A stretch of DNA of 64,000 bases from Thiomonas delicata. Lineage in GTDB: Bacteria > Pseudomonadota > Gammaproteobacteria > Burkholderiales > Burkholderiaceae_C. The notes below the pieces were generated by a model. It was not told the DNA's origin, did no database searches, and saw only the letters and a list, made by a program, of their open reading frames with translations. Shown piece by piece: positions 13,209 through 52,006 of this stretch (position 1 is the stretch's first letter; each line of letters opens with the position of its first letter). Where the stretch lies: NCBI RefSeq assembly GCF_900088825.1, contig NZ_LT592171.1, positions 1,600,109-1,664,108 of the forward strand, given 5' to 3'. The translations under genes and the position numbers were made by a program.

Positions 13209-13295
13209 GCCGGGATGGCGGAATCGGTAGACGCAGCGGACTCAAAATCCGCCGCCCTTAAAAGCGTGGGGGTTCGAGTCCCCCTCCCGGCACCA
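13209..13295 (+). tRNA. tRNA-Leu (anticodon CAA), CCA encoded
   Basis: An 87-nt class II tRNA. The acceptor stem GCCGGGA pairs with TCCCGGC, followed by discriminator A and an encoded CCA at 13293-13295. The anticodon stem GCGGA/TCCGC encloses the loop CTCAAAA, giving anticodon CAA at 13243-13245. A variable arm and a TTCGAGT T-loop in a GGGGG/CCCCC stem follow. Its 3' end lies 174 bp before a tyrosine recombinase gene, so it is the probable integration target of the island. Confidence 0.97.
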
Positions 13296-14803: not shown

Positions 14804-15822
14804 TCAGAGCCTGCCTTCCTGGATGAGCCTGGCCAGTGTTGAAATGTCCACACCGTAGTTCTTCTCTGCTTCTGGCGCCTCGTGTTGAAACGTGGTGAAC
14901 GTCGCCATGCGCCCGGCCATGTCGTCGGCCATTACTTCACGGCGGCGGAATTTCGGCCTGACCTTGTTGTGCACGCCCTCGGTGAAGAGGATCTTCGCGC
15001 GCAGCGCCTCGAAGCTGTAGCCGCGACCCAGGCGATTCATGACCCGGATGAGGCTGTTCAGGCTCTCGGTGTACGCGTTGGTGACCGGGTGGTCGAAGTA
15101 GGCGAGGATCTGCGGCTGCCAGTTGGTGAAGGCGCGGATCACATGGAACTTGTCGATGACGATGCGCGCGTCGGGCATGACCGCCTGCACCGCGTCGCGG
15201 TATGGCACCCACATATCCATCGCCACGGTCTGAACATCGTGGCGGCCGTCGAGGTTGCCCAGATAGTTGATGACCGTCTTCTTGTCGCGGTTCGGCAGCA
15301 GGTTGACGATGGTGTTGCTGCGGATGTTGGAGATCACGCAGCGTGGCTTGATGATGTGAATCTCGTCGATGCCCATCCAGGTCGGCGTCTCGAAGCGAAC
15401 TGTCTTCTCCAACTCGTTCACGTAGTCGCGGAAGATGTTGCGCACCGTCTTTTCATCGAGGCCGATGTCTTCCGCGATGCTGGCGAAAGTGCGCCGCAGG
15501 CTTTGCTGGCCGATCCAGACGACCAGGCGGTCGGTCATCTCCCGCTTGGTGTTGATTGCTGGCAGCGGCTCCATGAAGGTCTTGCCGCACGCCTGGCACC
15601 TCCAACGCTGGGTGTCCACGTAGATGCCCACGCGTTGCCGTGGATCAACAAATCACGCACGATCTGCTCGTTGCGACCATGGCCCAGCAGGCAGTCGTGT
15701 CCGCATGCCCGACAGTGGGTTGGCGTCTGCGCAATCTCGGCGCTGATGTGGTAGTCGTGCTCGGTTTCCTCAACCCGCAATACCTTGTAGGCGGGGAGAT
15801 TCAGGATATTAGCGGGAATTTT
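14804..15822 (-). pseudogene. ISL3-family transposase, frameshifted and internally deleted
   Basis: The 3' two thirds are nearly identical to the intact transposase at 50107-51435. Three things break the gene. An in-frame 312-bp deletion (joint near 15140) removes 104 residues, from the segment starting VRMANDAVER to the one ending HDAFADL, leaving DKFHV joined to IRAFTNW. A one-base loss near 15632 shifts the frame after LIHGN. The normal ATG is replaced, so the N-terminus reads KIPANILNLPAYKV without a start. The N-terminal 60 residues differ clearly from the intact copy (for example CRACGHDCLLGHGRNEQ against CTNCGSDRLLRYGRNEQ), while the rest is almost the same. The gene therefore looks like a recombinant of two related elements. 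Confidence 0.92.
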
Positions 15823-19780: not shown

Positions 19781-20956
19781 ATGCTTCCCATGATCCGTCA
19801 GATTGGCTTCGCGCTCGCGGCCTCGACCCTCGCCATTCTGAGCGGGTGTGCCCATTTCGTTCCCTCGGCCGGGCCACGCACGGCCTCCGTCGTGGATGCC
19901 CCACAGGCAGCCTCCCTGCATGGCATCGAACTCGTCGATGTCAATTATGGGATTGCCACGGCGCTGAAGAAGCAAAGCGAGGGGCGCCGGTTTTCCAGTT
20001 TTTTCAGCCAGCCCAGGCTCACCGACTATCACGTCGGCCCGGGAGATGTCCTGCAGGTGTTCATCTGGGAAGCGCCGCCTGCCATGCTGTTCACCCCACA
20101 AGCACTCAGCGGCTCGGGCCTCAGCAGCAGTGGCACGGGTACGGTAACCCTGCCCGAACAGATCGTCGGCAACTCTGGCACGGTCGTCGTTCCGTTCGCC
20201 GGAAAAATTGGGGTGGACGGCAAGACACTCTCCGAAATCGAAGCCGACATCACCAACCGGCTGCGCGGCAAGGCGAATCATCCGCAAGTCATTGTTCGGT
20301 TGGTCCGTAACAATACCCAGAATGTCACCATCGTCGGCAATGTGCAGCACAGCATGGAAGTGCCGATGACCCCCGGCGGGGTCAAGCTTCTACGGGCGAT
20401 CGCGCTTGCGGGCGGCGTCACCAAACCGGTGGAGAAGTCGACCATTCAGATTTCACGCGACGGGCGCACCATGACGTTGCCGCTGGAAGCGATTTTGCGC
20501 AACCCCCAGGACAACATCGCCCTGCAATCGGGCGACGTCGTCACGGCCCTGTATCAGCCGTTGAGTTTCACCGCGCTGGGAGCGATCGGCCGCAACGGTG
20601 AGGTCGATTTCGAAGCCAACGGCATCAATCTGGCCCAAGCTCTGGCGCGCATCGGCGGGCTGGACGACAACCGCTCCAATCCGGCGGGCGTCTTCCTGTT
20701 CCGCATGGTGCCGCCCGATGCACTGCCGTGGCCACAAAAGCCCACGACGCTGATCGATGGCAAGGTCCCCACGATTTTTCAGTTCAATCTGCGCGATCCC
20801 GCAACGTTTTTTGTCGCACAGACATTCCCAGTGGAGAACAAGGATCTGATCTACGTGTCCGACGCCCCGGCCACGGATCTGCAAAAGGTCCTCAACGTCG
20901 TGGGCTCCATCGTCTATCCCTTCCAGACCCTTCAATCCTTTGGCGTCATACGGTAA
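19781..20956 (+). CDS. Capsule polysaccharide export outer membrane lipoprotein (OPX; CtrA/BexD/KpsD type)
   Basis: Outer-membrane polysaccharide export channel of an ABC-dependent capsule system. It has 391 residues, the length of CtrA and BexD. A signal peptide ends in the lipobox LSGC. The polysaccharide-export domain begins YHVGPGDVLQVFIWEAPP and continues through VPFAGKIGVDGKTLSEIEADI. Two SLBB-like segments follow (TIVGNVQHSMEVPMTPGGVKLLRAIALAGG and FTALGAIGRNGEVDFEANGINLAQALARIGGL). The start may be ATG 19781 or 19790. It opens the capsule locus; the 130 bp upstream hold the only room for a promoter. Confidence 0.92.
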   Translation: MLPMIRQIGFALAASTLAILSGCAHFVPSAGPRTASVVDAPQAASLHGIELVDVNYGIATALKKQSEGRRFSSFFSQPRLTDYHVGPGDVLQVFIWEAPPAMLFTPQALSGSGLSSSGTGTVTLPEQIVGNSGTVVVPFAGKIGVDGKTLSEIEADITNRLRGKANHPQVIVRLVRNNTQNVTIVGNVQHSMEVPMTPGGVKLLRAIALAGGVTKPVEKSTIQISRDGRTMTLPLEAILRNPQDNIALQSGDVVTALYQPLSFTALGAIGRNGEVDFEANGINLAQALARIGGLDDNRSNPAGVFLFRMVPPDALPWPQKPTTLIDGKVPTIFQFNLRDPATFFVAQTFPVENKDLIYVSDAPATDLQKVLNVVGSIVYPFQTLQSFGVIR

Positions 20957-22515: not shown

Positions 22516-25500
22516 ATGCCTTTTTCAAATAAAAATAACGACAAATTACAAAATGTCGCAATCATCGGGATCGCGATGCGTTTGCCCGGTGATTTGGCTG
22601 ACGCCCAGTCCTTTTGGACAGCGCTGATCGAGGGCGCTGATCTCGTCACCCAAATCGACGGTTCCCGCTGGGCGGTGGACGCCCTTGAACACCCCAAGCG
22701 CGGCGAGCCGGGCCGCAGCGTGACATTCTCTGCAGGCGTCCTGTCGCGCATCGATACGTTCGACGCGGCTTTTTTCGGGATTTCCCCGCGCGAGGCTGAA
22801 TTGCTCGATCCCCAGCAGCGCCTGCTGCTGGAACTCACCTGGGAGGCGCTGGAAAACGCCCACGTCAAACCCTCCACGCTCGCCGGTCGTGATTGCGGTG
22901 TGTTCGTGGGGATTTCAGGGCTGGACTACGGGATGCGCATGCTCGACGACCTGTCCAAGATGGGTGCGCACTCCATGACGGGCAATACGTTGAGTATCGC
23001 CGCCAATCGCCTGTCGTATGCATTCGACCTTCACGGGCCGAGCATGGCCATCGATACCGCCTGCTCGTCGTCGCTGGTCGCGCTGCACCAGGCATGCACC
23101 GCCCTGGCAACGGGCCAAGCCTCGACAGCCCTGGTCGGTGGCGCCAATCTGCTGTTGCACCCCTATCCGTTTGTCGGTTTTACCAAGGCATCGATGCTCT
23201 CGGCGCAAGGCCGCTGCCGCGCCTTCGCCGAGAATGGAGACGGCTATGTCCGCGCGGAAGGCGCGGCGATGTTCCTGCTCAAGCCGCTACATCAGGCCGA
23301 GCAGGACGGAGATCGGATCTGGGGCGTGATCCGAGCCAGCGGGGTGAATGCCGACGGCGCGCGCAAAACCGGGCTGACCATTCCCAGCGCGGACGCCCAG
23401 GCCGAACTCATGCGTCAGGTGCTGCGCAGCGCCAGGCTCCTGCCCGAAGAAATCGATTACATCGAAGCCCACGGTACGGGCACCCGCATCGGCGACCCCA
23501 TCGAAGCCCGCGCCATCGGCCAGGTGTACGGCGCCGCAGCGCGGCGCGCGCAGCCGCTGCCCATCGGCTCGGTCAAGAGCAATCTCGGGCATATGGAACC
23601 CGCCTCGGGCATGGCTGGGCTGCTCAAGGCACTGCTCATCCTGCAGCACCGCACCATCCCCCCGTCGATCCATGCTCAGACGCTCAATCCCGAGATCGAT
23701 TTCGATGCGCTGCATCTGCGGGTCGCGCGGCAGGCGATGGCGCTGGAGGAGCAAGACCGTCCGCTTCGCGTCGGCATCAATTCCTTCGGCTTCGGCGGAG
23801 TCAACGCCCACGTCATTCTCGAGGAGTACCGGGCCGGTCATGGGCACACCACGCCCGCGCAATCCCCGCGACTCGTGCCCCAGCCGGTTTTGCTACCGCG
23901 CCGCGACGGCCCTCCGCTTCCCCTCTTGCTGTCGGCCAAGGACGACGCCGCCCTGCGCGAACTCGCCGCACGGTATCTACCGCTGTTGTCCGAGACCCAT
24001 GCGGCGGGCCGCATTCGCATCGCCCAGGCCGCATGGCAGGGGCGCGATTGGCTGGACATGCGCTTGGCCCTGCCCGATTTGCTCGACCCCGACGCGCTCG
24101 ACGCCCTGCGGCGTTTTGCCGAGGGTGAAAGCGTCCCCACCCTCGTGCACGAACAAGCCCTGCCAGCTCCCGCAAAGCTTGCTTTCGTCTACAACGGCAA
24201 CGGCGCGCAGTGGTCCGGCATGGGCCGCAAGCTCCTGGCGACATCGGCCGTCTTCCGTCATGCGCTGCTGCAAACCGCATCGGCCATTGCCCGACACGGC
24301 GGGCCTGACGTCTTGGAGGTTCTCGACGCGCAAGACCCCGCTGTGATGGACGACACCGCGCTGGCTCAGCCCGCGCTGTTTGCCGTGCAGGTGGCAACGA
24401 CCGAACTCCTGCGCAGCCTCGGCATCGACGCCAAGGCTGCTTGCGGGCACAGCGTGGGCGAAATCGCCGCCGCATGGGCTGTGGGCGCACTCGACCTGAA
24501 TGCCGCGGCACGCGTCATCGTCGCGCGCAGCAAGGCCCAGGCGCTCACTCGCGGCACCGGACGCATGGCCGCCGTCGGTCTTGGCGTCGAGGCCATGCGC
24601 GACACCCTTGCTCGCCTGCAACTCGACGACGCGCTGGAAATCGCGGCGGTCAACAGCCCGCGCAACGTCACCGTCAGCGGCTTCAAGACCGCGCTGGACA
24701 TTCTGCGCAACGCCTTGCGGCCCCAACCCATCTTCTATCGCGAACTCGATCTGGACTACGCCTTCCACAGCCGCTTGATGGAACCGATTCGCCAGGGGTT
24801 GCAGGCGGATCTGGCCGACCTCGCCCACGAGCGGTCGCAGACCGGACTGTTCTACTCCACGGTCAGCGCGGCGCCGCTGACATCCGAAGCGCTCGACGCT
24901 GACTACTGGTGGCGCAATGTGCGCGAACCCGTGCAATTCGGGCCGACCATCGACCACATGGCCGCGGCCGGTCATCGCGTGTTCCTCGAAATCGGACCGC
25001 ATTCGATCTTGCAGCGCTACATCGACGAAACCCTGCAGGACGGCAAGCACCCCGGCCGTGCGCTGCCCACCGTCCGCCGCGAAGCCGATGATCTTCCGGC
25101 GCTCGAACGCGCCGCCCTGCGTACCGCGCTGCTCGGCGCGCCGGTGGACGCCAACGCCTACTTCCCCGCCGACAACGACTGGAAGCGAGCGCAACTGCCC
25201 GCCTACCCCTGGCAGCGCAAGCGTTACTGGGCCGGCCACACCGCCGAGAGCTGCGCCCTGATCGAGCGCAGCCTCGTGCACCCTTTGCTGGGCTGGCGGC
25301 TGAACGACCTGCCCGCCGCCTGGGAAAACCATCTCGACCCGGTCAAGTTGCCGTGGCTGGCCGACCATCAAGTCGGGCATGCGGTCATCCTGCCCGGCGC
25401 GGCGTATCTTGAAATGGCCTTGGCTGCCGCGCGCGCCTGGCACGAGGACTCCGCACAGACCCTCGTCGATCACCTGGAAATCCTCAGCCCCGTCGTGTTC

Positions 25501-28500
25501 GATGGTGAGCACGCCCACACCCTGCGCGTCATGCTCGACCCCGCCGATGGGCGCGTGCGGATCGAAGGCCGCAGGCGCCTGAGCCATGACGCATGGGCCT
25601 TGCACGCACGCTGCCAGGTGCGCGCCGGCAGCGCCAAGCACATCCCCGCACCAGGGCAGATTCCCGCGCCTTGCGCACACGCGGCGTCCATCGACGGTGC
25701 GCGCCTCTACGCCGTCGCCAGCGCACTTGGCCTGGACTATGGCCCCGCCTTTCGCGGCCTGCACGCCTTGCAAGTGGCGCCGGACACCCTGCAGGCGCAA
25801 CTCGCCTGGGCCGAACACACCACCCCGGCGCAGGGCTATGTGCTGCACCCCGCGGTACTCGACCAGTGTTTTCAGGCCACGTTCGGCTGGTTCGAGGCCG
25901 AACTCGCCACGGCTGCGCGCCCCACGGCGTTCCTGCCCGTCGGCATGGAGCGCGTCACGGTGCGACAGGCGGACGTCGGCGCCTTGGCCACGCACCTGCG
26001 TGCGCGCCTCGTGCGTCGCAGCCCGCGCTCGCTGCTGGTGGACTTTGATCTGCTTGACGCCGACAGCCACGTTCTGGCCGAGGCGCGCGGCGTGCGTTTT
26101 CGCGCAGCCGCCCTCACCACGCAGCACACACTGCCGCAAGCCTGGGCCACGCGGGCGCAACTCACGCCCCTGCAAGGCGACCCCGTCGCCACGGCGCCGC
26201 TGCCTTCCACGCCCGACCTCGTGGAGGCCATCGAACACGGTTTCACCGCCGCCGATCTCGGCGCGTTCCGCCGCTATGCCGAAGAACTCGCGCCCTTGGT
26301 GGATGCATTGCCCGCCGCCTTTGCGCGCGACGCCCTCCTTCCCTTTGCGCAGCCCGACGGCACGCTCGACCCCGCCACCCTCACACGACTGCGCGAGAGC
26401 CATCCACTGTGGACGTGGTGTATCGGCACGCTGCAAGACGATGGCGTCCTGCGCAGGCACACCGCTGGCTGGCAGCTCCGCGCAGACGAACTGCCCCCGA
26501 CCACCGCGATCTGGCAATCGGCCCTGATCGATTGTCCGCAAGCCTGGCCCGAACTGCTCCGCATGGCGCGCGTCGCCGAAAGTCTGGCCGAACTGGCCGA
26601 GGGCCCCACCGCGCAAGCCAACGACCGCGCGGCAGAGGTCGCATCCGCTGCGTCCGATGTGCCCTGGTACGCCGCCGCGCACCAGGCCGCCCTCTACGGC
26701 ATGCGGGCGCTGGTGCAGCGCTGGCCGCGCAACCGCCGGCTGCGCGTGCTCGACGTCTGCGCCAATGAAAGCAGCCTGCTTGACGCCCTCCACGCCGAGT
26801 TGCCCCCCGATCGCAGCGATCTCGTGTACGCGAGCAGTTCGGAGACGGCTGTGGCATCCCTGCAGGCGCACATGGATGGCGCGGCGCACAGCGTCGCCAC
26901 GCACATCGATCCGGCCAGCTTCGCGGTCGATGCGGTCGATGGCTTGCCCGAACACTTCGATGTCGTGCTGCTCGACCATGTCCTGCATGCCAGCCCGACC
27001 CCGGTTGCGGCGTTGGCCGAACTCGCCAAGCGCATGGCGGCGGACGCTGTGCTGATCATCGCCGAACGCTGGCCCGACCGCGCCAGCAACCTGCTGTTTG
27101 GCGCACAGCGCAACTGGTGGCACACCGCTGGCAGCGGCGTCGTCCCCAGCCTGATGACCCCGCATGCCTGGACGCAAGCTTTGCAGGCGGCCGGCTGGCA
27201 GCACGTGCAGAGCATGACCGACCCCATCGCCGGAGCCGCAGGGCTGGGAAGTTTTGTCGTGCTGGCGCGCCCACCCACGACACAAGCCCGGAACACATTG
27301 GAAGATCGCGCGCCCAAACGCCATGCCCTGCTGGTGCAAGATCCTGCTTGGCGGCCCATGGCCGAAGCACTGGTCGCAACCTTGCTCGGCCAGGGGCAAT
27401 ACGCGCACATCGCCACGCAAGCGCCGGATGCGGCGACCTTCGCCAACTGCGACGCAGCCATTCTTTTCCCCGCCCTTTCCACGCTGCAAGCCGGTTCACA
27501 GCAGTTGGCGCGCGACCTGGACGCCGTGCGCCGCAGCCTGCTGCAAGCCGCCGCCCTGGAAAAGCCTCCGTGCGTATGGCTCGTGACCCAGGGTGGCGCG
27601 CTGGCTGAGGAGCCGCAACCAGGCAGCAACGACCCCGTGCCCTCCGCTTTGTGGGGCATGGTGCGCGTGCAGCGCAACGAAGCTCCGCATCTGCCCATGC
27701 GCCTGCTCGACGTGCCAAACCCGGCCGACCTTGCCAGTGCAGCCGCCATGGCGACACGCATCGCCCACGCCGTGCTGCATGACGACGGCGAAGACGAAAC
27801 CCTGCTCAGTGCGCAAGGCCGCTTCGCGCCACGCATCCAGGCGGTCGATCTCGGTGCACTCGCGCCAGCCTCCTCCGCGCCGCAAGCCGCCCATGACTGG
27901 CGTCTGGACTTCACCCTGCCGGGACAACTGCGCAATCTGCACTGGCAGGTGGCCTCCCGCGGCGCGCCGCAGGGCGATCAGATTGAAATCGAAGCGGTTG
28001 CCGCCGGGCTCAATTTCCGCGACCTGATGTACGCCATGGGCCTGCTGAGTGACGAGGCCTTGGAGCAGGGCTTCGCCGGCGCCGCGCTCGGCCTGGAAGT
28101 CGCGGGCCGCGTGCTGCGCTGCGGTCCCGGCGTGACCCGCTTCAAACCCGGCGACGACGTGTTGGCCTTTGCCGGATCCAGTCTTGCAAGCCACGTGTGC
28201 GTGTCCGAGCGCGCTGCGGCACTCAAGCCCCCATCCTGGAGTTTCGAGCAGGCCGCAACCGTGCCCACGGTGTTCTTCACCGTCTGGTATGCGCTGGTGC
28301 ATCTGGCCCGGTTGCAAGCCGGTGAACGCGTGCTCATCCATGCCGCAGCCGGCGGCGTCGGGCTGGCCGCCATTCAAGTGGCCAAGCTGCTCGGCGCCGA
28401 AATCTTCGCCTCAGCCGGCAACGCCGACAAACGCGCCTTCGTGCGTTTGCTGGGCGCCGACCATGTGCTCGATTCGCGCAGCCCGGACTTCGACCAAGCC

Positions 28501-30156
28501 GTGCTCGACCTGACCCAGGGCGAAGGGGTGGACGTGGTACTCAACTCGCTGGCCGGCCAGGCGATCGAGCGCAACCTGCGCGCCATGCGCCCCTTTGGCC
28601 GCTTTGTCGAACTCGGCAAACGCGACTTCTACGAAGACACCACCATTGGCCTGCGCCCCTTCCGCAACAACATCAGCTACTTCGGCTTCGACGCCGATCA
28701 GCTCATGGCGCTGCGCCCCGAGCTGTCCACGCGCGTGTTCGGCGAAGTCATGGCGCAGTTCGCGCAAGGGCACCTCAACCCACTGCCCTACACCGCATTT
28801 TCTGCCGATCGCATCAAGGACGCCTTGCGGCACATGCAGCAAGGCCGCCACATCGGCAAACTGATCATCGACCTGCGCCAGCGCCCGACCCAGGTGCATA
28901 CAGCAGCGCAGGCCGCGCCGCAACTTCGCCTGAACGCCGAGGCCAGCTATCTCGTCACCGGCGGGCTGTCCGGCTTCGGCCTGGCCACGGCCCAGTGGCT
29001 TGTGCAACAAGGAGCCCGCCACCTCGTGCTGCTGGGCCGCCGCGGTCTGGCCACCCCCGGCCTGGAGCCCACGCTGCAGGCCTTGCGCGAACAAGGCGCG
29101 CAGGTCGTTGTGATGGCTTGCGACGTGTCCGACGCCGCCGCGCTGCAACAAGCGCTTGCCCCGCTCGGGCACGCCCTGCCCCCGCTGCGCGGCGTGATCC
29201 ACGCCGCGATGGTGCTCGACGACGCGCTGCTGCCCAACCTTGACGCCACCCGCTTCGCCACCGTGCTCGCGGCCAAGCTTGGCGGCGCCCTGAACCTGCA
29301 CCAGGCGACCCTCGGCATGGCGCTGGACTTCTTTGTGCTGTATTCCTCCGCCACGGTCATGCTGGGCAATCCCGGTCAGGCCAACTACGTCGCGGCCAAT
29401 GCCGCGCTCGAAGCCTTCGCGCGCTCACGGCGGTCGCAAGGACTACCGGCGTTGGCGGTGGCCTGGGGACCGATTGGCGACGTCGGCGTGCTCACGGCGA
29501 ACGCGGCCGCCCGCGACGCCCTGGAAACCCGCCTGGGCGAAACTCCGCTGCAGTCCGCGCAAGCCCTGCAAGCCCTGGGTCGCCTCATCGCCAGCGGGGT
29601 TTCCGGTCTCGCCGTGATGCCGCTCGACGCCGCCACCCTGCGCCGCGCCCTGCCCGATACCGCCAGCCGCCGCTTTGCCGATCTGTGGCGCATGGCCGGC
29701 AACAGCCAGGGCCAGGACGCCGATGGCGACGTTCGCGCCCACCTCGCGCAAATGCCGCCCGAGCAAGCCCGGCAGGCCATAGCCGGCATGCTGGCAGGTG
29801 AAGTCGCCGCCATCCTGCGTCTGCCACCGGAGGCTGTGCCCTGCGCGCGTTCGCTGCACGATCTTGGGCTGGATTCGCTCATGGCCGTGGAACTCGGTCT
29901 CGCCCTGGAAAAACGCTTTGGCGTCACATTGCCGGCCATGTTGATCAACGACAACCCGACCGTCGAACGCATCGCCGACCGGGTCTACGCCGGGCTGTTC
30001 GGCGAAGGCGCGGCCGATGAAACGTCCGCCCAAACCCAGCTCGTGCAGAGCATGGCCGCGCAACACGCCGAATCCGGTCTGGACGCGCGGCAAGTGCAGG
30101 ACCTGGTCGAGGACCTGCACACCAAAACCCACGGCGCCACGCGCCTGATCGCATGA
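22516..30156 (+). CDS. Type I highly reducing polyketide synthase (WcbR-like)
   Basis: A single-module megasynthase of 2546 residues. Ketosynthase: Cys183 in DTACSSS, His319 in EAHGTGT and His359 in SNLGH. Acyltransferase: Ser646 in GHSVGE, and YAFHS at 749-753, closer to the malonyl than the methylmalonyl pattern. Dehydratase: His951 in DHQVGHAVILPG and Asp1116 in HPAVLDQ. A methyltransferase-like region near 1385-1590 has a degenerate SAM motif (VLDVCANESSL). Enoylreductase around 1790-2110 (IHAAAGGVGLAA), ketoreductase around 2140-2330 (LVTGGLSGFG; YSSA...NYVAANAAL), and an acyl carrier domain with Ser2454 in LGLDSLM. There is no thioesterase. The next gene overlaps by 4 bp and encodes an oxoamine synthase, which could release the chain. 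The layout matches wcbR/wcbT of the B. pseudomallei capsule. The product is probably a saturated long acyl chain. Confidence 0.93.
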   Translation: MPFSNKNNDKLQNVAIIGIAMRLPGDLADAQSFWTALIEGADLVTQIDGSRWAVDALEHPKRGEPGRSVTFSAGVLSRIDTFDAAFFGISPREAELLDPQQRLLLELTWEALENAHVKPSTLAGRDCGVFVGISGLDYGMRMLDDLSKMGAHSMTGNTLSIAANRLSYAFDLHGPSMAIDTACSSSLVALHQACTALATGQASTALVGGANLLLHPYPFVGFTKASMLSAQGRCRAFAENGDGYVRAEGAAMFLLKPLHQAEQDGDRIWGVIRASGVNADGARKTGLTIPSADAQAELMRQVLRSARLLPEEIDYIEAHGTGTRIGDPIEARAIGQVYGAAARRAQPLPIGSVKSNLGHMEPASGMAGLLKALLILQHRTIPPSIHAQTLNPEIDFDALHLRVARQAMALEEQDRPLRVGINSFGFGGVNAHVILEEYRAGHGHTTPAQSPRLVPQPVLLPRRDGPPLPLLLSAKDDAALRELAARYLPLLSETHAAGRIRIAQAAWQGRDWLDMRLALPDLLDPDALDALRRFAEGESVPTLVHEQALPAPAKLAFVYNGNGAQWSGMGRKLLATSAVFRHALLQTASAIARHGGPDVLEVLDAQDPAVMDDTALAQPALFAVQVATTELLRSLGIDAKAACGHSVGEIAAAWAVGALDLNAAARVIVARSKAQALTRGTGRMAAVGLGVEAMRDTLARLQLDDALEIAAVNSPRNVTVSGFKTALDILRNALRPQPIFYRELDLDYAFHSRLMEPIRQGLQADLADLAHERSQTGLFYSTVSAAPLTSEALDADYWWRNVREPVQFGPTIDHMAAAGHRVFLEIGPHSILQRYIDETLQDGKHPGRALPTVRREADDLPALERAALRTALLGAPVDANAYFPADNDWKRAQLPAYPWQRKRYWAGHTAESCALIERSLVHPLLGWRLNDLPAAWENHLDPVKLPWLADHQVGHAVILPGAAYLEMALAAARAWHEDSAQTLVDHLEILSPVVFDGEHAHTLRVMLDPADGRVRIEGRRRLSHDAWALHARCQVRAGSAKHIPAPGQIPAPCAHAASIDGARLYAVASALGLDYGPAFRGLHALQVAPDTLQAQLAWAEHTTPAQGYVLHPAVLDQCFQATFGWFEAELATAARPTAFLPVGMERVTVRQADVGALATHLRARLVRRSPRSLLVDFDLLDADSHVLAEARGVRFRAAALTTQHTLPQAWATRAQLTPLQGDPVATAPLPSTPDLVEAIEHGFTAADLGAFRRYAEELAPLVDALPAAFARDALLPFAQPDGTLDPATLTRLRESHPLWTWCIGTLQDDGVLRRHTAGWQLRADELPPTTAIWQSALIDCPQAWPELLRMARVAESLAELAEGPTAQANDRAAEVASAASDVPWYAAAHQAALYGMRALVQRWPRNRRLRVLDVCANESSLLDALHAELPPDRSDLVYASSSETAVASLQAHMDGAAHSVATHIDPASFAVDAVDGLPEHFDVVLLDHVLHASPTPVAALAELAKRMAADAVLIIAERWPDRASNLLFGAQRNWWHTAGSGVVPSLMTPHAWTQALQAAGWQHVQSMTDPIAGAAGLGSFVVLARPPTTQARNTLEDRAPKRHALLVQDPAWRPMAEALVATLLGQGQYAHIATQAPDAATFANCDAAILFPALSTLQAGSQQLARDLDAVRRSLLQAAALEKPPCVWLVTQGGALAEEPQPGSNDPVPSALWGMVRVQRNEAPHLPMRLLDVPNPADLASAAAMATRIAHAVLHDDGEDETLLSAQGRFAPRIQAVDLGALAPASSAPQAAHDWRLDFTLPGQLRNLHWQVASRGAPQGDQIEIEAVAAGLNFRDLMYAMGLLSDEALEQGFAGAALGLEVAGRVLRCGPGVTRFKPGDDVLAFAGSSLASHVCVSERAAALKPPSWSFEQAATVPTVFFTVWYALVHLARLQAGERVLIHAAAGGVGLAAIQVAKLLGAEIFASAGNADKRAFVRLLGADHVLDSRSPDFDQAVLDLTQGEGVDVVLNSLAGQAIERNLRAMRPFGRFVELGKRDFYEDTTIGLRPFRNNISYFGFDADQLMALRPELSTRVFGEVMAQFAQGHLNPLPYTAFSADRIKDALRHMQQGRHIGKLIIDLRQRPTQVHTAAQAAPQLRLNAEASYLVTGGLSGFGLATAQWLVQQGARHLVLLGRRGLATPGLEPTLQALREQGAQVVVMACDVSDAAALQQALAPLGHALPPLRGVIHAAMVLDDALLPNLDATRFATVLAAKLGGALNLHQATLGMALDFFVLYSSATVMLGNPGQANYVAANAALEAFARSRRSQGLPALAVAWGPIGDVGVLTANAAARDALETRLGETPLQSAQALQALGRLIASGVSGLAVMPLDAATLRRALPDTASRRFADLWRMAGNSQGQDADGDVRAHLAQMPPEQARQAIAGMLAGEVAAILRLPPEAVPCARSLHDLGLDSLMAVELGLALEKRFGVTLPAMLINDNPTVERIADRVYAGLFGEGAADETSAQTQLVQSMAAQHAESGLDARQVQDLVEDLHTKTHGATRLIA

Positions 30157-31487
30157 ACACCCCCGCCGACGACGATCCCACACCGGGCCTGGGCAAGGCA
30201 GCCCGCCTCGGTCTGATCGACCGTTTCCGCACGCGCCAGGGCGGCGCGAGCGCCGCACCCGCACGCGCCGCCGCGCCCGCGGCCAACGTGCCCGATCAGT
30301 TCTATCGCTTCGAGCGCCACCCGGCGTATGAAAGGCTGCTTGTCTCGCACAGCGCGGCCGAGCGCTATGGGGTGCAGAGCCCGTTCTTCCGTGTGCACGA
30401 GGCGGTGGCGGGAGCCACCACCACCATCGGCGCGCGCCAGTACCTCAACTTTTCCAGCTACAACTATCTTGGCCTCAACGGCCACCCCCGCGTCAACCAG
30501 GCCGCCCAGCGCGCGGTGGAGCGCTACGGTACGTCGCCGTCGGCCAGCCGCCTCGTCGCCGGGGAGCGTCCGGTGCAACGGCAGCTCGAACAGGCCCTGG
30601 CCACGTTTCTTGGCGTGGACGACTGCATCGCCTTCGTCAGCGGCCACGCCACCAATGTGAGCACCATCGCCACCCTATTGGGCCCGCGCGACCTCGTGCT
30701 GCACGACGCCCTCATCCACAACAGCGTGCTCGAAGGCGTCAAGCTCTCGGGCGCGCACCGCCGCAGCTTTCCGCACAACGACTGGCAATGGGTCGATGCC
30801 TTGCTCGGCCAGTTGCGCGGCCAGTTCGAACGCGTGCTCATCGTGGTGGAAGGCCTCTACAGCATGGACGGCGACGGCCCCGACCTGCGGCACTTCGTCA
30901 CGCTCAAGCAGCGGCACAAAGCCTTTTTGATGGTGGACGACGCGCATGCCCTGGGCGTGCTCGGCGCCACCGGGCGCGGCAGCGCGGAGCATTGGGGCAT
31001 CAACCCCCGCGACGTGGACATCTGGATGGGCACGCTGTCCAAGACCCTGGCCTCCTGCGGCGGCTACATCGCCGGCAGCACCCCGCTGGTGGAACTGCTC
31101 AAGTTCAACGCCCCGGGCTTCGTGTACAGCGTGGGCCTGTCTCCGGCACTGGCCGCCGCGGCGCTGGAAGCGTTGCACATCCTGCAGGAAGAGCCGCAGC
31201 GCGTGGCCCGGCTGCAGGCCGTGGGCGCAGAGTTTCTGCAGCTCGCCCGCGCGCGCGGCATCGACACCGGCCTGTCCGAAGGGCACGCCATCACCCCGGC
31301 CATCGTGGGCTCGTCGCTCAAGGCGGCGCGGCTGTCCAACGCGCTGTTCGAGCGCGGCATCAACGCCCAACCCATCATTTACCCGGCGGTGGAAGAAAAG
31401 GCCGCGCGCATCCGCTTCTTTCTCTGCGCCATGCACGAGCCGCAGCAACTGCTGGCCACCGCCGACGCCTTGGCCGAACTGATCTGA
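30153..31487 (+). CDS. Alpha-oxoamine synthase (serine palmitoyltransferase/AONS-like; WcbT-like)
   Basis: PLP-dependent enzyme that condenses an amino acid with an acyl thioester, releasing CO2, to give an alpha-aminoketone. It has 444 residues with an N-terminal extension of about 80 that precedes YLNFSSYNYLGLNGHP, the start of the fold. Visible sites are ASRLVAGERPVQ, DALIHNSVLEG, VEGLYSMDGD, the PLP aspartate in MVDDAHALGVLG, and Lys297 in TLSKTLASCGGYIAG, which forms the Schiff base. The ATG overlaps the polyketide synthase stop, so the two are made together. I infer that it offloads the ACP-bound chain, as Fum8-type enzymes do in fungi. The amino acid used cannot be read from sequence. 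Confidence 0.9.
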   Translation: MNTPADDDPTPGLGKAARLGLIDRFRTRQGGASAAPARAAAPAANVPDQFYRFERHPAYERLLVSHSAAERYGVQSPFFRVHEAVAGATTTIGARQYLNFSSYNYLGLNGHPRVNQAAQRAVERYGTSPSASRLVAGERPVQRQLEQALATFLGVDDCIAFVSGHATNVSTIATLLGPRDLVLHDALIHNSVLEGVKLSGAHRRSFPHNDWQWVDALLGQLRGQFERVLIVVEGLYSMDGDGPDLRHFVTLKQRHKAFLMVDDAHALGVLGATGRGSAEHWGINPRDVDIWMGTLSKTLASCGGYIAGSTPLVELLKFNAPGFVYSVGLSPALAAAALEALHILQEEPQRVARLQAVGAEFLQLARARGIDTGLSEGHAITPAIVGSSLKAARLSNALFERGINAQPIIYPAVEEKAARIRFFLCAMHEPQQLLATADALAELI

Positions 31488-33027: not shown

Positions 33028-34143
33028 GTGTCCATCAACAAAAAGCCATTCTGGCAACGCATCAACAAACTCTTTCTCGCCACCGTGGTCGTTCCCACGG
33101 CGCTGTCGGGTGTGTATTACGGCTTCATCGCCAGCGGGGAGTACATCTCGGATTCGAGCTTTGTCATCTACAACCCGCAGCAAACCAATACGGGCGGCTT
33201 CAGTTCACTGCTGGCCACGGCGGGGCTGTCGCATTCCAGCTCGGGCGCGTATTCCGTGCACGACTACATCCTCTCGCGCGACGCGCTGGCCGAACTGCAG
33301 CGCACGCTGAACTACCGCCAGATGGTCAGCAACAGCCGCATTGACCTGTTCAACCGCTTTGGCGGCATTCTGGCCCCGTACTCCAGCTTTGAAGAGCTGT
33401 TCGATTACTACAAAAAAATGGTGTCCGACAACATCGACACCGTCTCCAACATCAGCACCTTGCAGGTGAAGGCCTACACCGCGCTGGACGCCCAGCGCAT
33501 CAACGCCAACCTCCTCGCACTGGGCCAGAACCTGGTCAACCGCCTCAACGCCCAGGCCAACGAGGAAGGGGTGCGGTTTTACAAGCAAGATGTTGCCAAC
33601 GCCGAGGCCAAGGTGCGCGCCGCCTCGCTGGCCATGGCCGCCTACCGCAACAAGCACGGCGTGTTCAACCCCGCGCCGGAAAGCGCCCTGCAACTGCAAC
33701 TGGTTTCCAAGCTGCAAGACAAGCTCATTGCCGAGCAAACCCAGCTCGCCCAGCTTTTGTCCGGCACGCCCAGCAACCCGCAGGCCCCCCTGCTGCGCAA
33801 AGGCATCGAGGAGCTGAAGCGGGAAATCACCCGCCAAAGCGCCAAAGTGACGGGCGGCAGCAATTCCCTGGCCAGCAAGGCGTCGCCCTACGAGCAACTG
33901 GTGCTCAACCAGACCTTTGCCGAAAAAGAACTTGCCGCAGCCATCGCCGCGCTCGAGCAAGCACGCATCACCGCCCAAAAACAGCAGCTTTTCGTGGAAG
34001 TGATCGCCAAGCCCAGCCTGCCCGACAAGGCCATGCAGCCCAAGCGTGTGCGCGGCGTGCTGGCCGTGCTCGTCGTCGGCCTGCTGCTGTGGGGCGTGTT
34101 GAGCGTGATCATCGGCGGCGTGAAGGAGCACCATGACCGCTGA
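33028..34143 (+). CDS. kpsE: Capsule export inner-membrane/periplasmic protein KpsE (CtrB/BexC type)
   Basis: Polysaccharide co-polymerase that links the ABC transporter to the outer-membrane exporter. It has 371 residues, with one membrane helix near each end (FLATVVVPTALSGVYYGFIA and VLAVLVVGLLLWGVLSVIIG). The long periplasmic segment between them is largely helical and coiled-coil. The sequence after the first helix, SDSSFVIYNPQ, and the proline-containing stretch before the second, IAKPSLPDKAMQPKR, are characteristic of the KpsE/BexC/CtrB group. It overlaps kpsM by 11 bp. Confidence 0.93.
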   Translation: MSINKKPFWQRINKLFLATVVVPTALSGVYYGFIASGEYISDSSFVIYNPQQTNTGGFSSLLATAGLSHSSSGAYSVHDYILSRDALAELQRTLNYRQMVSNSRIDLFNRFGGILAPYSSFEELFDYYKKMVSDNIDTVSNISTLQVKAYTALDAQRINANLLALGQNLVNRLNAQANEEGVRFYKQDVANAEAKVRAASLAMAAYRNKHGVFNPAPESALQLQLVSKLQDKLIAEQTQLAQLLSGTPSNPQAPLLRKGIEELKREITRQSAKVTGGSNSLASKASPYEQLVLNQTFAEKELAAAIAALEQARITAQKQQLFVEVIAKPSLPDKAMQPKRVRGVLAVLVVGLLLWGVLSVIIGGVKEHHDR

Positions 34144-35009: not shown

Positions 35010-35624
35010 ATGATCGAACTCACCGACATCTGCAAAACCCACCTCCCCACCTACCACGGGCGGGCACAAAAACTCATGCTCGACCATGTCGATCTAACCA
35101 TCAACCCCGATGAAAAAGGGAGCATCTTTGGGCACAACGGCGCAGGCAAATCCACATTGATCCGCATCATCAGCGGTTCTGACAAGCCGCACTCCGGCCG
35201 CGCCAACAAAACCATGACCGTCTCCTGGCCGCTGGCTTTCAGCGCCCCTTTCCAAGGCAGCCTCACCGGGCGCGGCAACACCAAACTCATCTCGCGGTCT
35301 ATGGTGCGGACTTTCACCAAACCCTCGAGATGGTGGAAGACTTCGCCGAACTGGGCTCCTATCTCACCGAACATTCGCAATCTCCATGGCCATTGAGTTC
35401 CATTGCTTATTGATCGATGAAGGCATGTCCGTGGGCGATCATCGATTTGCAAAAAAATGCGATACAGAATTTTGGAGAAACGCGGAGACCGCGCCTTGAT
35501 CATCGTCGCCCACCAGACCGATCTCATTCGCAACCATTGCGATCACGCAGCCGCGCTTGAGCAAGGCCGTCTGAGTGTCATGCCTTCGGTAGACGCAGCG
35601 ATTGCCGCTTACGAGGCGCTTTGA
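35010..35624 (+). pseudogene. kpsT: Capsule ABC transporter ATPase KpsT, degenerate copy
   Basis: The first 95 codons are good: MIELTDICKTHLPTYHGR, Walker A GHNGAGKSTLIRI, and TVSWPLAFSAPFQGSLTGRGNT. Three lesions follow. One G is missing after ATCTCGCGG near 35300. About 40 bp is missing near 35373, removing the ABC signature region that reads VKNYSSGMRARLAF in the intact copy. One more base is missing near 35472, after CDTEF. Across these breaks the translation can be followed to the natural end, IAAYEAL and TGA at 35622. Without the signature the ATPase could not work even if the frame were restored. The gene is where kpsT is expected, after kpsM. Confidence 0.93.
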
Positions 35625-35637
35625 AGCGTTGTCTCCC

Positions 35638-37680
35638 ATGCTCGATCAGACAACGACCTTTTACCGTACCTTCGAAGATGCTTTTCGGGGCTCGCGTGAA
35701 CTCATAAGACAGCGCTTGTGTCAATATGCGCCATTCATTCAACCCCTCGCAATCCTCTATCCCCATGGGGAAGCACTGGATTTAGGCTGCGGCAGGGGCG
35801 AATGGCTCGAAGTCATTTCTGAGCAAGGTTTTTCGGCACGCGGTGTGGACCTGGACGATGGCATGCTGGCCGCCTGCATCGAACGCGGTTTGCAAACCTC
35901 CCATCAAGACGCAGTTAGCGCGCTAGAAGCATGTGCCGATGAAAGCTTATGCATCGTCTCAGCCTTCCATGTCGCCGAACACATCTCTATTGATGCTCTG
36001 CAAACGCTCGTGGCCGAAGCTCTACGCACACTCAAGCCCGGCGGCATCCTCATTCTCGAAACGCCAAATCCGGAAAATCTTACCGTCGGGTCATGCAGTT
36101 TTTATCTCGACCCGACCCACCAGCGGCCCATACCGCCGCAACTTTTAGCCTTTCTACCCGAGAGCGCGGGTTTTGCCCGAAGCAAAGTCGTGCGCCTGCA
36201 AGAAGCGCCAGAACTCCGCGACGCGCAGGACATTGGCCTACTTCAAGTTATCGAAGGCGTTAGTCCCGATTACGCGGTCGTCGCCCAAAAAGCGGCACTT
36301 GGATCGATTCTCTCCGCGTTCGATTCTGCATTTCAAACCGAATATGGCCTGACCCTGAGCGTTCTCGCGCAGCGATACGAATCCGCATGGAAGGAGCGGC
36401 ATGTAGTGCTGGGTCAGGCCCTCGAAGCTGCCCAGGCCGCCACGCTCTGCCGCGAGGAAGCGCTGCGCAACGACACTCAGACCCGACTCGACGCCCTGCG
36501 TGACGAACTTCAGGCGCAAAGTGAGGCTATAGCCACCCATGCGGATGCAAGGCTCCAAGCCAGTGTTGCTGAAATCCGCAACGAAACTGCCGCACAAAGA
36601 GACGCGATGCAACTGCGCTTTATGCAACAAGAGGACACGCAACAGTACTTGTATTGGGAGATGCAACAACAACAAAACACGATCGCAGTGCTCGTCGAAC
36701 AGATGCGCACAATACGACAACCCTGGTGGCGGCGCTTGTTCAAACCTCGGCAGTCTTTCATGCCACTTCCCGAAAATCGGCGAGCGAGTGAAGTGCAGTT
36801 ATCGTTGCAGCGGATCATGGCAGCGCCCCCACCGCCCAAAGCAAATTCCGATATCGCCGTCTCGCAAACTCAAAACCCGGCCGCATCACCAATCATCACC
36901 AAAGAAACGATGAAGCAACAACCCATGCCTTCGATACAGCACATTGCCGAACTCTTTGCCTTGGATGGAGAAACCTTCGTTGTCGAGGCATACCGCAATT
37001 TGCTCGCGCGCGAGCCAGATGAGCACGGCATGCGCTATTACCTTGGCCGTTTAGCTATGGGAAAAAGAAAATCGGCTGTCATTGCCCAAATAGCGAAATC
37101 TCCCGAGTGTCAATCGGTAGCAAAGATTGGTGGCCTTGCTCAACTGATGGCCGAAGAGCGTCGTGTAGCCCATTGGTTTTGGCAAATCTTTGGCCGCCGC
37201 CAACGTCTGGAAGAAGGGCTGCACAGTGGCATCAATGAACTCGCTCGTATTCAACAACACAACCTAATGCGGTTAGAAGACACGACAACACAATGCACAC
37301 ACCAAATCATCGCTGCGGTCCAGCGCATGTCCGACGCCAACTTCGAACGCCATGCCGAGATTATTGCCCTGATTCGGGCCTTCCCTCGTCCTGTTGAGGA
37401 TTCTCAACCCCTAGTGATCACGGCCCTTTCACCCCAGACGACAGAACCGCCTCATTTGTCACGCGAAACCGTTCTATCCCTTTTTCGCGCAATTCTGGGT
37501 CGAGAACCCGAAAACGAAGAAGTCATCCATCGGCACTCCCTTCTCCCTTCTGCAGCCGTGCTTCGTGAGGCTCTCATCCAATCAGATGAATTTCAGGCGC
37601 GCCTGGCTGCATTGACAGAGCACGCCCGTGGCATTTTTAAACAACAACTGCAAGCCAAGCTTGCCGACATAGGAATTTAA
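35638..37680 (+). CDS. SAM methyltransferase with coiled coil and DUF4214-like domains (possible chain terminator)
   Basis: A 680-residue protein. Residues about 20-230 form a class I methyltransferase (motif I ALDLGCGRGEWLE, then VSAFHVAEHIS and GGILILETPNPENL). Residues about 240-370 are heptad-rich, Glu/Gln/Ala coiled coil. A short basic stretch (PWWRRLFKPRQS) and a linker lead to a DUF4214-like segment, FVVEAYRNLLAREPDEHGM. A second, weaker copy, LSLFRAILGREPENEE, lies near the end. The methyltransferase-plus-coiled-coil plan recalls WbdD, which caps O-antigen chains and sets their length in ABC-dependent export; capsule chain termination is my inference. I chose the ATG at 35638 because it follows the kpsT remnant by 13 bp. 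GC content is lower than that of flanking core genes. Confidence 0.82.
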   Translation: MLDQTTTFYRTFEDAFRGSRELIRQRLCQYAPFIQPLAILYPHGEALDLGCGRGEWLEVISEQGFSARGVDLDDGMLAACIERGLQTSHQDAVSALEACADESLCIVSAFHVAEHISIDALQTLVAEALRTLKPGGILILETPNPENLTVGSCSFYLDPTHQRPIPPQLLAFLPESAGFARSKVVRLQEAPELRDAQDIGLLQVIEGVSPDYAVVAQKAALGSILSAFDSAFQTEYGLTLSVLAQRYESAWKERHVVLGQALEAAQAATLCREEALRNDTQTRLDALRDELQAQSEAIATHADARLQASVAEIRNETAAQRDAMQLRFMQQEDTQQYLYWEMQQQQNTIAVLVEQMRTIRQPWWRRLFKPRQSFMPLPENRRASEVQLSLQRIMAAPPPPKANSDIAVSQTQNPAASPIITKETMKQQPMPSIQHIAELFALDGETFVVEAYRNLLAREPDEHGMRYYLGRLAMGKRKSAVIAQIAKSPECQSVAKIGGLAQLMAEERRVAHWFWQIFGRRQRLEEGLHSGINELARIQQHNLMRLEDTTTQCTHQIIAAVQRMSDANFERHAEIIALIRAFPRPVEDSQPLVITALSPQTTEPPHLSRETVLSLFRAILGREPENEEVIHRHSLLPSAAVLREALIQSDEFQARLAALTEHARGIFKQQLQAKLADIGI

Positions 37681-37683: not shown

Positions 37684-43826
<6,143 letters not shown>

Positions 43827-46497: not shown

Positions 46498-46743
46498 ATG
46501 GAAACAGCCAAGGTCTTCTGGTCCGGCAGGTCGCAGGCCGTGCGTTTGCCAAAGTCGTTTCGGTTTGAGGGTGACGAGGTGCGCATACGTCGGCACGGCG
46601 CGGCGGTGATTCTCGAACCCATGCCTGTGGATTGGGCATGGCTGGATGCGCTCTGCGCTCCGTTGGATGCCGATTTTGTTCAGGCTGCAACAGAGCAGAC
46701 GCAAGCCCAAGACCGCCCAGAACTGAAAGCAGTGTTTCGCTGA
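46498..46743 (+). CDS. vapB: VapB-type antitoxin (AbrB/SpoVT fold)
   Basis: An 81-residue DNA-binding antitoxin. The N-terminus METAKVFWSGRSQAVRLPKS and the following FRFEGDEVRIRRHG form the swapped-hairpin AbrB domain of VapB. The C-terminal third (WLDALCAPLDADF) would wrap around the toxin. Its stop overlaps the toxin start in TGATG. It probably represses its own promoter with VapC. Confidence 0.92.
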   Translation: METAKVFWSGRSQAVRLPKSFRFEGDEVRIRRHGAAVILEPMPVDWAWLDALCAPLDADFVQAATEQTQAQDRPELKAVFR

Positions 46744-47147
46744 TGCGCTACGTGCTCGACACCCACGCCATCATTGCCCTGCTGAAAGACCCGGCTGGGC
46801 CCGTGTCGCAACGTGTTCGACAGCATCGGCCAGCGGAGGTGGGGGTCTCGGTCATCGTGATGCACGAGTTGTATTTCGGGGCTTTCAGAAGTCAGCGCGT
46901 GGAGAGAAATTTGACCATCGTCGATGGCTTGCGCTTCGAAGTGGTTCCTTTCGACCAGGAAGACGCGCGCCGCGCCGGGGAAATTCGAGCTGTGTTGGCG
47001 GCGTCAGGCACGCCCATCGGTGGCTATGACCTTCTGATCGCCGGCCAGGCCAGCGCACGCGACCTCATTCTGGTTTCACGCAATCTGCGCGAGTTCACCC
47101 GAGTGGAGCATCTGCGCGTGGAAAACTGGGAAGATGAGTCTGTTTGA
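46743..47147 (+). CDS. vapC: VapC-type PIN ribonuclease toxin
   Basis: A 134-residue PIN-domain RNase. Acidic residues are in place: Asp6 in YVLDTHAIIALL, Glu in VIVMHELYFGA, and Asp in IGGYDLLIAGQASARDLILVSRN. VapC toxins cleave specific RNAs such as initiator tRNA or the sarcin-ricin loop. ATG 46743 overlaps vapB. The pair sits between a capsule glycosyltransferase gene and a second toxin pair, interrupting the capsule gene order before kpsT. Confidence 0.92.
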   Translation: MRYVLDTHAIIALLKDPAGPVSQRVRQHRPAEVGVSVIVMHELYFGAFRSQRVERNLTIVDGLRFEVVPFDQEDARRAGEIRAVLAASGTPIGGYDLLIAGQASARDLILVSRNLREFTRVEHLRVENWEDESV

Positions 47148-47270
47148 TGATGCCCCCATTCCAATGGTTGCCGAAGCCAGCCAGAAGCGAGCCGAGGCTG
47201 CATGCGGATGGACGCAGGTCGCCACTTGAGTCATAATGATCATATCGACCATATCACTCTGGTGCCCGCC

Positions 47271-47543
47271 ATGATCACTGAAATCAGCGCTGTCAATTTT
47301 CGGCAAAACCTCGGCGAGATGCTCAATCAAGTGCAGTACCGCAACGACAGCATCGTCATCAACAAGGATGGCAAGCCAGTCGCGGCCTTGGTGGATGCCG
47401 AGTTATTCGCCCGCATTAGGCGCATGCGCGAGCGCTTCGAGGCGCTCAGTGACCGCATCGCTTCGTCGTATGACGAGGTGCCGATCGAGCTGGGCTTGGC
47501 CGAGATCGATGCAGCGGTGAGTGCCGTACGCGGCAAGCGCTGA
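47271..47543 (+). CDS. Phd/YefM-family antitoxin
   Basis: A 90-residue antitoxin: MITEISAVNFRQNLGEMLNQ followed by VINKDGKPVAALVDAELFARI is the standard Phd/YefM N-terminal domain. The upstream 50 bp contain CATATCgacCATATCA (about 47,250-47,265), a likely operator. The stop overlaps the next gene (TGATG), so it is coupled to a PIN-domain toxin. Confidence 0.9.
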   Translation: MITEISAVNFRQNLGEMLNQVQYRNDSIVINKDGKPVAALVDAELFARIRRMRERFEALSDRIASSYDEVPIELGLAEIDAAVSAVRGKR

Positions 47544-47956
47544 TGCCGTCGCTGCGCGTCGTGCTCGACACCAACGTGCTGGTGTCAGGTTTAGCCTACC
47601 CGGCCAGCGTACCAGGGCGCATCGTCATGGCCTGGCGCCAAGGGGGATTGGACGTGGCGCTCTCACGCTACATCCTGGATGAAATGGTGCGTGTTTTGCC
47701 GCGTTTATCGCGGGTGAGGCTGAACAGCGCGGAGATCCGCGATCTGGCCGATAGCTTCATGTTCCTGGCCGACATTGTCGAACTCTCGGGCACTCGCGAT
47801 GCGCAGTTGCGTGACGAGGCTGACCAAGCTGTGCTGCAGACACTCCTGGCCAGCACAGCGAACTGTTTGATCACCGGTGACAAAGACCTGCTGGCGCTTG
47901 CCGACCGGTACCCAATCTTGACGCCAGCCGAGTTCTGGGCGCGCCATGGAGGATGA
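47543..47956 (+). CDS. PIN-domain toxin (PIN_3 type), partner of the Phd-like antitoxin
   Basis: A 137-residue PIN protein. RVVLDTNVLVSGLAYPASVP carries the first Asp, YILDEMVRVL the Glu, and DEADQAVLQTLLASTANCLITGDKDLLAL the last acidic cluster. It fits the COG1569 group of putative toxins found with Phd/YefM-like antitoxins. It is the second toxin in a row and ends 57 bp before the intact kpsT. Confidence 0.88.
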   Translation: MPSLRVVLDTNVLVSGLAYPASVPGRIVMAWRQGGLDVALSRYILDEMVRVLPRLSRVRLNSAEIRDLADSFMFLADIVELSGTRDAQLRDEADQAVLQTLLASTANCLITGDKDLLALADRYPILTPAEFWARHGG

Positions 47957-48013
47957 GGGGGACGCAGAGGGGCTATCCCAAGGCCTACGCAAGAGAAGGA
48001 ATTCACAGTAAAA

Positions 48014-48975: not shown

Positions 48976-48976
48976 T

Positions 48977-51993: not shown

Positions 51994-52006
51994 GCCTTCA
52001 AGCGCC

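Follow-up and report, generated by a model that had tools for sequence, protein, structure and literature searches.

The synthase pair of Thiomonas delicata

A polyketide synthase (PKS) gene and an α-oxoamine synthase (AOS) gene lie side by side in a 64,000 nt stretch of Thiomonas delicata DNA (contig NZ_LT592171.1, positions 1,600,109 to 1,664,108; hereafter the window), which also carries genes for an ABC-transporter capsule. The initial annotation described a single-module, fully reducing synthase without a thioesterase, translationally coupled to the AOS. Both reading frames are open, and the Pfam domains bear out the single module. The PKS stop codon overlaps the AOS start in the sequence ATGA at 30153–30156, as had been noted. 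The two genes are as follows.

22516–30156, + strand: PKS, 2546 amino acids (aa), open; single-module iterative enzyme of the RkpA/WcbR/SgaA type with the order ketosynthase (KS), acyltransferase (AT), dehydratase (DH), degenerate methyltransferase (MT), enoylreductase (ER), ketoreductase (KR) and acyl carrier protein (ACP), assigned by Pfam and an alignment of 70 sequences
30153–31487, + strand: AOS dependent on pyridoxal phosphate (PLP), 444 aa, open; RkpG/SgaB type, serine palmitoyltransferase-like, Aminotran_1_2

Pfam models matched the KS, AT, DH (two models), ER, KR and ACP (PP-binding) domains of the PKS, and no thioesterase was among the matches. In an alignment of the window PKS with 63 long PKSs from related loci and six plasmid PKSs, the KS Cys-His-His, the AT Ser, the DH His and Asp, and the ER, KR and ACP motifs are kept in the window protein and largely conserved. 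Its AT motifs are GHSVGE and YAFH, the latter of which we take to suggest malonyl-CoA. The usual DH motif is HxxxGxxxxP; the window PKS has HQVGHAVILP, with the glycine substituted at a column that varies across the 70 rows. The description as fully reducing holds with this substitution as a qualification; an MT-like region (PF13489, residues 1394–1565) had been missed. Motif I of that region is degenerate in the window PKS and unconserved over the 70 rows, on which grounds C-methylation of the acyl chain was rejected; two Pseudomonas PKSs (L047 and L083) retain more of its glycines. Because the KR, DH, ER and ACP domains are present and the MT is degenerate, the product expected from the domain content is a plain, unbranched saturated long acyl chain. 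Assignment to the swf family of sponge-symbiont PKSs was rejected on the KS motifs, which are DPQQR and HGTGT in the window and DPQ(I/V)R and HATGT in swf enzymes (PMC3908369).

Chemistry and capsule role of related pairs

Two metagenome-assembled genomes (MAGs; L006 and L007) encode AOSs that share 87% and 82% identity with that of the window. Its identity is 59% and 61% to the AOSs of two Pseudomonas loci (L083 and L047; 57–62% over the scanned Pseudomonas loci), 49% to RkpG of Sinorhizobium meliloti, 34% to a paralogue from T. delicata itself and 31% to the serine palmitoyltransferase (SPT) of Escherichia coli. A quick tree of 24 rows placed the window AOS, RkpG and the Pseudomonas AOSs in one clade of 19 rows (SH-aLRT 97). 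With the Pseudomonas relatives standing in for PfSgaB of Pseudomonas fluorescens, the window shares with the RkpG/SgaB clade a complete reducing module without a thioesterase followed by an AOS. The nearest solved structures by sequence are SPTs (3A2B and 8GUH), and the PLP-lysine motif, SKTLAS, resembles the SKSLAS of the compared SPTs and is unlike the GK form of the compared KBL. This motif argues against condensation with alanine, glycine or another amino acid, which would give a 1-deoxy-sphingoid or some other aminoketone. Fumonisin-type fungal pairs provide the precedent for that outcome: Fum1 and Fum8 combine a reducing PKS lacking a thioesterase with AOS release, as in the window, but they use alanine and make a toxin that has nothing to do with a capsule. 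We regard a donor other than serine as improbable here.

The initial annotation considered the chemistry of such lipids not established. This view has been overtaken by work on the homologous enzymes SgaA and SgaB of P. fluorescens MYb115, which produce C24, C26 and C28 sphinganines with serine as the amino donor of SgaB (PMC12134224). The same source proposes the short-chain dehydrogenase/reductase (SDR) SgaC as the ketoreductase, interprets lipids heavier by 154 Da as "most likely phosphoglycerol sphingolipids", and reports 6,101 putative clusters homologous to that of MYb115, chiefly in Burkholderia (PMC12134224). PfSgaB also took acyl-CoAs as surrogate substrates in vitro (PMC12134224), so that exclusive use of free acyl-CoA, proposed earlier as a refuting outcome, is not a clean test. 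In MYb115, as in the window, a monomodular iterative PKS precedes an AOS, but the cluster is presented as one for a secondary metabolite, and none of the terms capsul-, polysaccharide, kps, wcb and rkp occurs in the main text (PMC12134224).

The pairing is also found in capsule clusters, a precedent that the earlier proposal of a sphingoid-like product overlooked in the case of rkp. The rkp-1 region of Sinorhizobium (rkpA-rkpGHIJ) resembles the window in having a PKS, an AOS and a KpsS-like protein for the K-antigen capsular polysaccharide (KPS). The counterpart of the AOS in Burkholderia capsule clusters is WcbT, which we take to be an AOS. In published descriptions, to which this likeness is limited, PKSs of the WcbR/RkpA type lie within capsule clusters (PMC3908369) and wcbT occurs in a capsule cluster with manC (PMC2945791). 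In an rkpA mutant of Sinorhizobium fredii "KPS is not produced" (PMC4270759), and the rkp literature refers to a "specific lipid carrier", which, so far as we know, is named there without a structure (PMC4881576). In E. coli, KpsS places the first 3-deoxy-D-manno-oct-2-ulosonic acid (Kdo) residue on (lyso-)phosphatidylglycerol (PMC7694667, PMC10148158). The text of a 2025 review of capsule attachment contains none of the terms sphing-, polyketide, rkp, sinorhizobium and lyso- (PMC12220298), and we found no paper in the open-licence literature that links the SgaAB sphinganine chemistry with the rkp-type lipid carrier. The PKS-AOS pair is accordingly of a known kind (rkpA/rkpG, wcbR/wcbT, sgaA/sgaB), with its chemistry known from a homologue.

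Capsule genes in the window and in related loci

The initial annotation named manC, kpsE and kpsM as neighbors of the pair, and these lie where it put them; it missed KpsS and KpsC homologues 25–30 kb away as well as an SDR gene and a GNAT gene. Matches below are to Pfam, TIGRFAM or NCBIfam models or to our own hidden Markov models (HMMs).

19781–20956, + strand: KpsD/Wza-type outer-membrane export protein; PF02563, SLBB, Wza HMM 607 bits
21087–22355, − strand: GT1 (EryCIII/MGT-like) glycosyltransferase, divergent from the PKS; PF06722
31515–32963, + strand: ManC, GDP-mannose synthesis; TIGR01479 552 bits, above cut-off
33028–34143, + strand: KpsE/BexC/CtrB-type inner-membrane export protein; TIGR01010 320 bits, under the cut-off of 437.5; KpsE HMM 480 bits
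34133–34948, + strand: KpsM-type ABC permease; PF01061, KpsM HMM 317 bits
34899–35600, + strand: broken kpsT copy spread over several frames; PF00005 on the N-terminal piece only; the DNA aligns with gaps to the L006 region
35602–37680, + strand: methyltransferase with DUF4214 in the capsule neighborhood; PF13489, PF13946
37684–42798, + strand: large protein with three group-1 glycosyltransferase stretches; PF00534, three times
42777–43826, + strand: GDP-mannose 4,6-dehydratase; TIGR01472 472 bits, above cut-off
48014–48667, + strand: second, intact kpsT, 217 aa; KpsT HMM 310 bits
54748–56025, + strand: GT4 glycosyltransferase, partner of the following KpsC-like protein; PF00534
55997–57091, + strand: one-module KpsC-like protein; PF05159, KpsC HMM 406 bits
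59411–60799, − strand: KpsS-like protein of the initiating β-Kdo transferase family; PF05159 249.6 bits; NF050054 208.7 bits, under the cut-off of 600

The window holds homologues of KpsM, KpsT, KpsE, KpsD, KpsS and KpsC, the set of a group 2-type ABC-transporter capsule. Its KpsS-like protein is 42.5% identical to that of S. meliloti; because the listed reading frame overlaps the adjacent SDR gene by 113 bases, the true kpsS start is probably later. The GT4 and one-module KpsC-like proteins (54748–57091) stand in the position of a two-module KpsC, and the Kdo linker may differ from the usual one; GT4, KpsC and KpsS genes are neighbors also in L014, L027 and L028. Among the scanned loci, the GT1 HMM matched only the window and its closest relatives, L006 and L007.

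The broken kpsT and the IS605-type and ISL3 transposases inside the locus could mark a decaying relic that makes no capsule. The 7.6-kb PKS gene is nevertheless open with its catalytic motifs kept, the AOS, manC, kpsE, kpsM and kpsS genes and the other genes listed above are open too, and the second, intact kpsT weakens the broken copy as proof of a dead capsule; we consider decay of the locus improbable.

Several mobile and accessory elements were recorded in the same region. A full ISL3-type transposase gene (50107–51435, by Pfam) and a near-identical shortened copy on the same strand (14804–15631, by eye) flank the PKS and the export part of the capsule locus, and a tRNA-Leu(caa) gene (13209–13295), a possible island border, lies ~1.5 kb before the first copy. 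The IS605 OrfB/TnpB-type protein (48827–50050) has a Cas12f1-like TNB domain. Toxin-antitoxin-like genes occur at 46632–54635 and 57908–59335, including a PIN domain protein (46632–47147) and HipA (57908–59335) recognized by Pfam and others seen by eye.

Of 567 confirmed AOS relatives, we compared the 80 best-scoring ones with up to 10 kb on each side. The PKS HMM was made from a single sequence and the other family HMMs mostly from the same loci, so the counts describe this set. The PKS was matched in 68 of the 80 loci, and at least one of six capsule families (KpsS, KpsC, KpsE, KpsM, KpsT and Wza) in 58. The PKS is present in all 47 loci that span 21 kb or more, a capsule family in 38 of them, and KpsS or KpsC in 31. 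Where both PKS and AOS were found, the AOS starts between −200 and +300 bases from the PKS end in 74/78 loci. None of 20 random 19-kb segments, drawn from five contigs of four genomes, matched any of the six families, and one had a ManC match. Because the spacing is kept in 74/78 loci and capsule genes are found in 58/80 loci against 0/20 random segments, the arrangement of PKS, AOS and capsule genes is not due to chance.

In a sample of 369 genomes of the class, 11 (including that of the window) encode the AOS at E ≤ 1e-110. The PKS adjoins the AOS in eight of the ten other genomes, the exceptions being G004 and G092. Seven of the 11 genomes encode a PF05159 protein, no more than 30 kb from the AOS on its contig in six and on a different contig in one. 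At E ≤ 1e-6 this family was not found in the remaining four, and its absence there, together with its off-contig position in one genome, indicates that the pair is not restricted to capsules of the Kdo type. The link of the PKS-AOS pair with capsule genes is strong but not universal.

Finishing enzymes and a proposed lipid carrier

Two partners that had gone unnoticed recur in the 80 loci, a classical SDR in 28 and an integral-membrane, sulfatase-fold protein of the lipoteichoic acid (LTA) synthase family in 26, with both present in 23. Among solved structures, the LTA-family protein comes closest to the phosphoglycerol transferase GacH (1.3e-15) and to LTA primase/synthases. In 24 of the 36 kpsS-bearing loci an SDR gene lies directly beside kpsS and in the same orientation; this SDR is classical in all but one of them, where it is a homologue of the extended window SDR. 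Related Pseudomonas loci carry both the LTA-family and the classical SDR genes, unlike the window; on plasmid pL21564-1 of Pseudomonas sp. TMW 2.1634 (L121; typed as mobilizable) the order is PKS, AOS, PhyH, KpsC, GNAT, "LTA synthase family", SDR, KpsS, KpsC, KpsF, KdsB and KdsA. On Paraburkholderia pII it is KpsS, SDR, LTA, PKS, LpxC-like, AOS, GNAT and ManC. The last three genes of pL21564-1 give that plasmid its own kpsF, kdsB and kdsA. A gene for an LpxC-like deacetylase was seen between PKS and AOS in Caballeronia (L122:16901–17827) and Paraburkholderia (L126:16887–17801), and an LpxC-like ORF cluster occurs near the AOS in 4/80 loci; deacetylation of a lipid or linker is possible.

In S. 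meliloti Ak57 (L120), unlike in the window, the AOS is followed by a classical SDR and by a protein of the LTA synthase family; the latter is encoded by an unannotated gene between the SDR and KpsS-like genes (28.9% identity, E 4e-38). The gene names in L120, including the rkpI position, follow from gene order and from what we take to be the order rkpGHIJ. The L120 record is labelled plasmid pSymB but spans 3.72 Mb, about the size of the S. meliloti chromosome, and the label may be wrong. In Pseudomonas kielensis (L047) the SDR gene is the fifth after the AOS gene. In MYb115 the tags of the AOS (RS19800) and the SDR (RS19775) are likewise five steps apart (PMC12134224), and on this spacing the sga cluster is probably a capsule locus as well.

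The window has two other genes beside kpsS.

60687–61700, − strand: extended SDR (SDR60), proposed 3-keto reductase, adjoining kpsS; PF01370/PF01073
61697–62920, − strand: GNAT61, FemAB-like/Acetyltransf_6 acyltransferase, proposed lipid N-acyltransferase; PF13480 25.8 bits (cut-off 22), PF04339 21.8 bits (under the cut-off of 27)

The two genes overlap by four bases. An SDR gene thus lies beside kpsS here too, but of the extended type, not the classical one of the rkp-like module. No LTA-family protein was found in the T. delicata genome (completeness 99.99) by a one-protein search or by an 8-row profile, the latter of which matched 7/13 genomes, and the best PF00884 match there scored 16.8 bits, below the cut-off of 25. 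The GNAT-SDR-KpsS order is kept on L128, a contig of the genome of L006, and L079 has AOS, KpsS, an SDR60 homologue and a partial GNAT61 homologue, the last on the opposite strand. GNAT61 is rare: it is present in 2/274 class genomes at E ≤ 1e-10, including that of the window, and in 2 of 15 genomes behind loci picked from the 80 (G274 and G282). Among 12 AOS genomes, the LTA profile is absent from all three with GNAT61 (that of the window, G274 and G282) and present in 7 of the 9 without it (Fisher p 0.045); both are missing in G275 and G276. This count covers neither G283–G286, four of those 15 genomes, nor G091; the latter, not established as an AOS genome, has a GNAT61 homologue at 25% and no LTA-profile match.

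The ceramide genes of Caulobacter and E. coli BL21 (spt, cerR and bcerS/yghO) are similar in outline, combining an AOS with an extended SDR and with an N-acyltransferase, but that system has a stand-alone ACP and an acyl-ACP synthetase, and its bCerS has no detectable homology to GNAT61. SDR60 aligns with an E. coli CerR homologue at 27% over 229 aa (E 6e-18), in a family whose extended members are broadly alike.

We propose, with a probability of roughly 0.6, that the PKS-AOS pair makes a sphingoid lipid carrier or anchor of the capsule, the finishing of which differs in the branch of the window. A long-chain, sphingoid-like 2-amino-3-ketone for the capsule, the earlier idea, is likewise the best reading. 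On its own ACP the PKS would assemble a long saturated acyl chain without branches, and the AOS, translated with it, would release the chain by decarboxylative condensation, most likely with serine, to yield 3-keto-sphinganine, as seen in the SgaA/SgaB homologues. The partner SDR would then reduce the 3-ketone to the sphinganine base, on which KpsS- and KpsC-type enzymes would start the Kdo linker of the ABC-transporter capsule. In many relatives the phosphoglycerol-transferase-like protein (at the RkpI position and its kin) would convert sphinganine to glycerophospho-sphinganine, the proposed KpsS acceptor made jointly by PKS, AOS, SDR and LTA-like protein. With its single long chain and the head group of lyso-phosphatidylglycerol, glycerophospho-sphinganine could pass for that lipid at KpsS, and the rkp carrier may be this compound. 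The linkage of the genes was observed here, and the SgaAB enzymology and the need for rkpA were reported by others; we infer the head-group step, the role of the lipid as acceptor and everything that concerns T. delicata.

In the branch of the window, where the LTA-type enzyme was not found and GNAT61 and a different SDR adjoin kpsS, the anchor is probably finished otherwise, perhaps by N-acylation and glycosylation. A specific form of this, in which the capsule is built on an N-acylated, ceramide-like base made by PKS, AOS, extended SDR and an independently evolved GNAT-type N-acylation that replaces the glycerophospho-sphinganine carrier, is in our view unlikely. The window points to a finishing step that can be exchanged. 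The link between the two fields, the module and the substitution of finishing enzymes in this branch look new.

Several observations weigh against a sphingoid anchor of the capsule. Topology is the weak point: LTA-type (LtaS-type) enzymes normally act outside the inner membrane and KpsS at its cytoplasmic side, and a hydropathy profile of 25 LTA-family rows gave no clear membrane side. The kpsS gene of the window lies 28 kb from the AOS gene on the opposite strand, and its product falls under the NCBIfam cut-off for KpsS. The mutual exclusion of LTA profile and GNAT61 comes from 12 genomes, several of them MAGs, in which absence is weak evidence. GNAT61 was rejected as a member of the bCerS ceramide synthase family, having no meaningful BLASTP match and an hhalign probability of 0.2 (percent), a score no better than those of four unrelated profiles, with shallow profiles on both sides (4 and 5 rows; that of bCerS comprised YghO and four alphaproteobacterial homologues); GNAT61 may still act in a similar way to a ceramide synthase. 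None of the six capsule families was found within 10 kb in 9 of the 47 full-length loci (L031, L035, L048, L051, L055, L066, L070, L071 and L081), two of which (L031 and L071) have an identified sugar-nucleotide enzyme. Single-protein PKS-AOS fusions occur in Planktothrix (L124:7605–15203) and Streptomyces (L125:10317–15140), with no capsule genes within 14 kb by annotation or HMM.

The 4 of 11 class-sample AOS genomes without a PF05159 match would suit a free sphingolipid, that is, a membrane lipid or secreted metabolite merely co-located or co-regulated with a capsule that sits on ordinary (lyso)phosphatidylglycerol. In MYb115, free sphinganines and putative phosphoglycerol sphinganines affect the worm host, in a paper whose main text is silent on capsules (PMC12134224). 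Such a lipid would hardly explain the loss of KPS in the S. fredii rkpA mutant (PMC4270759) or the SDR gene beside kpsS in 24/36 kpsS-bearing loci of a set defined by the AOS, and we consider it the less probable account.

A sphingoid carrier would explain why a capsule requires a polyketide synthase. Combined with the phosphoglycerol-transferase-like partner, the SgaAB chemistry leads to one concrete structure for the rkp-type carrier, glycerophospho-sphinganine-Kdo. If this is true, many capsulated proteobacteria would be makers of sphingolipids.

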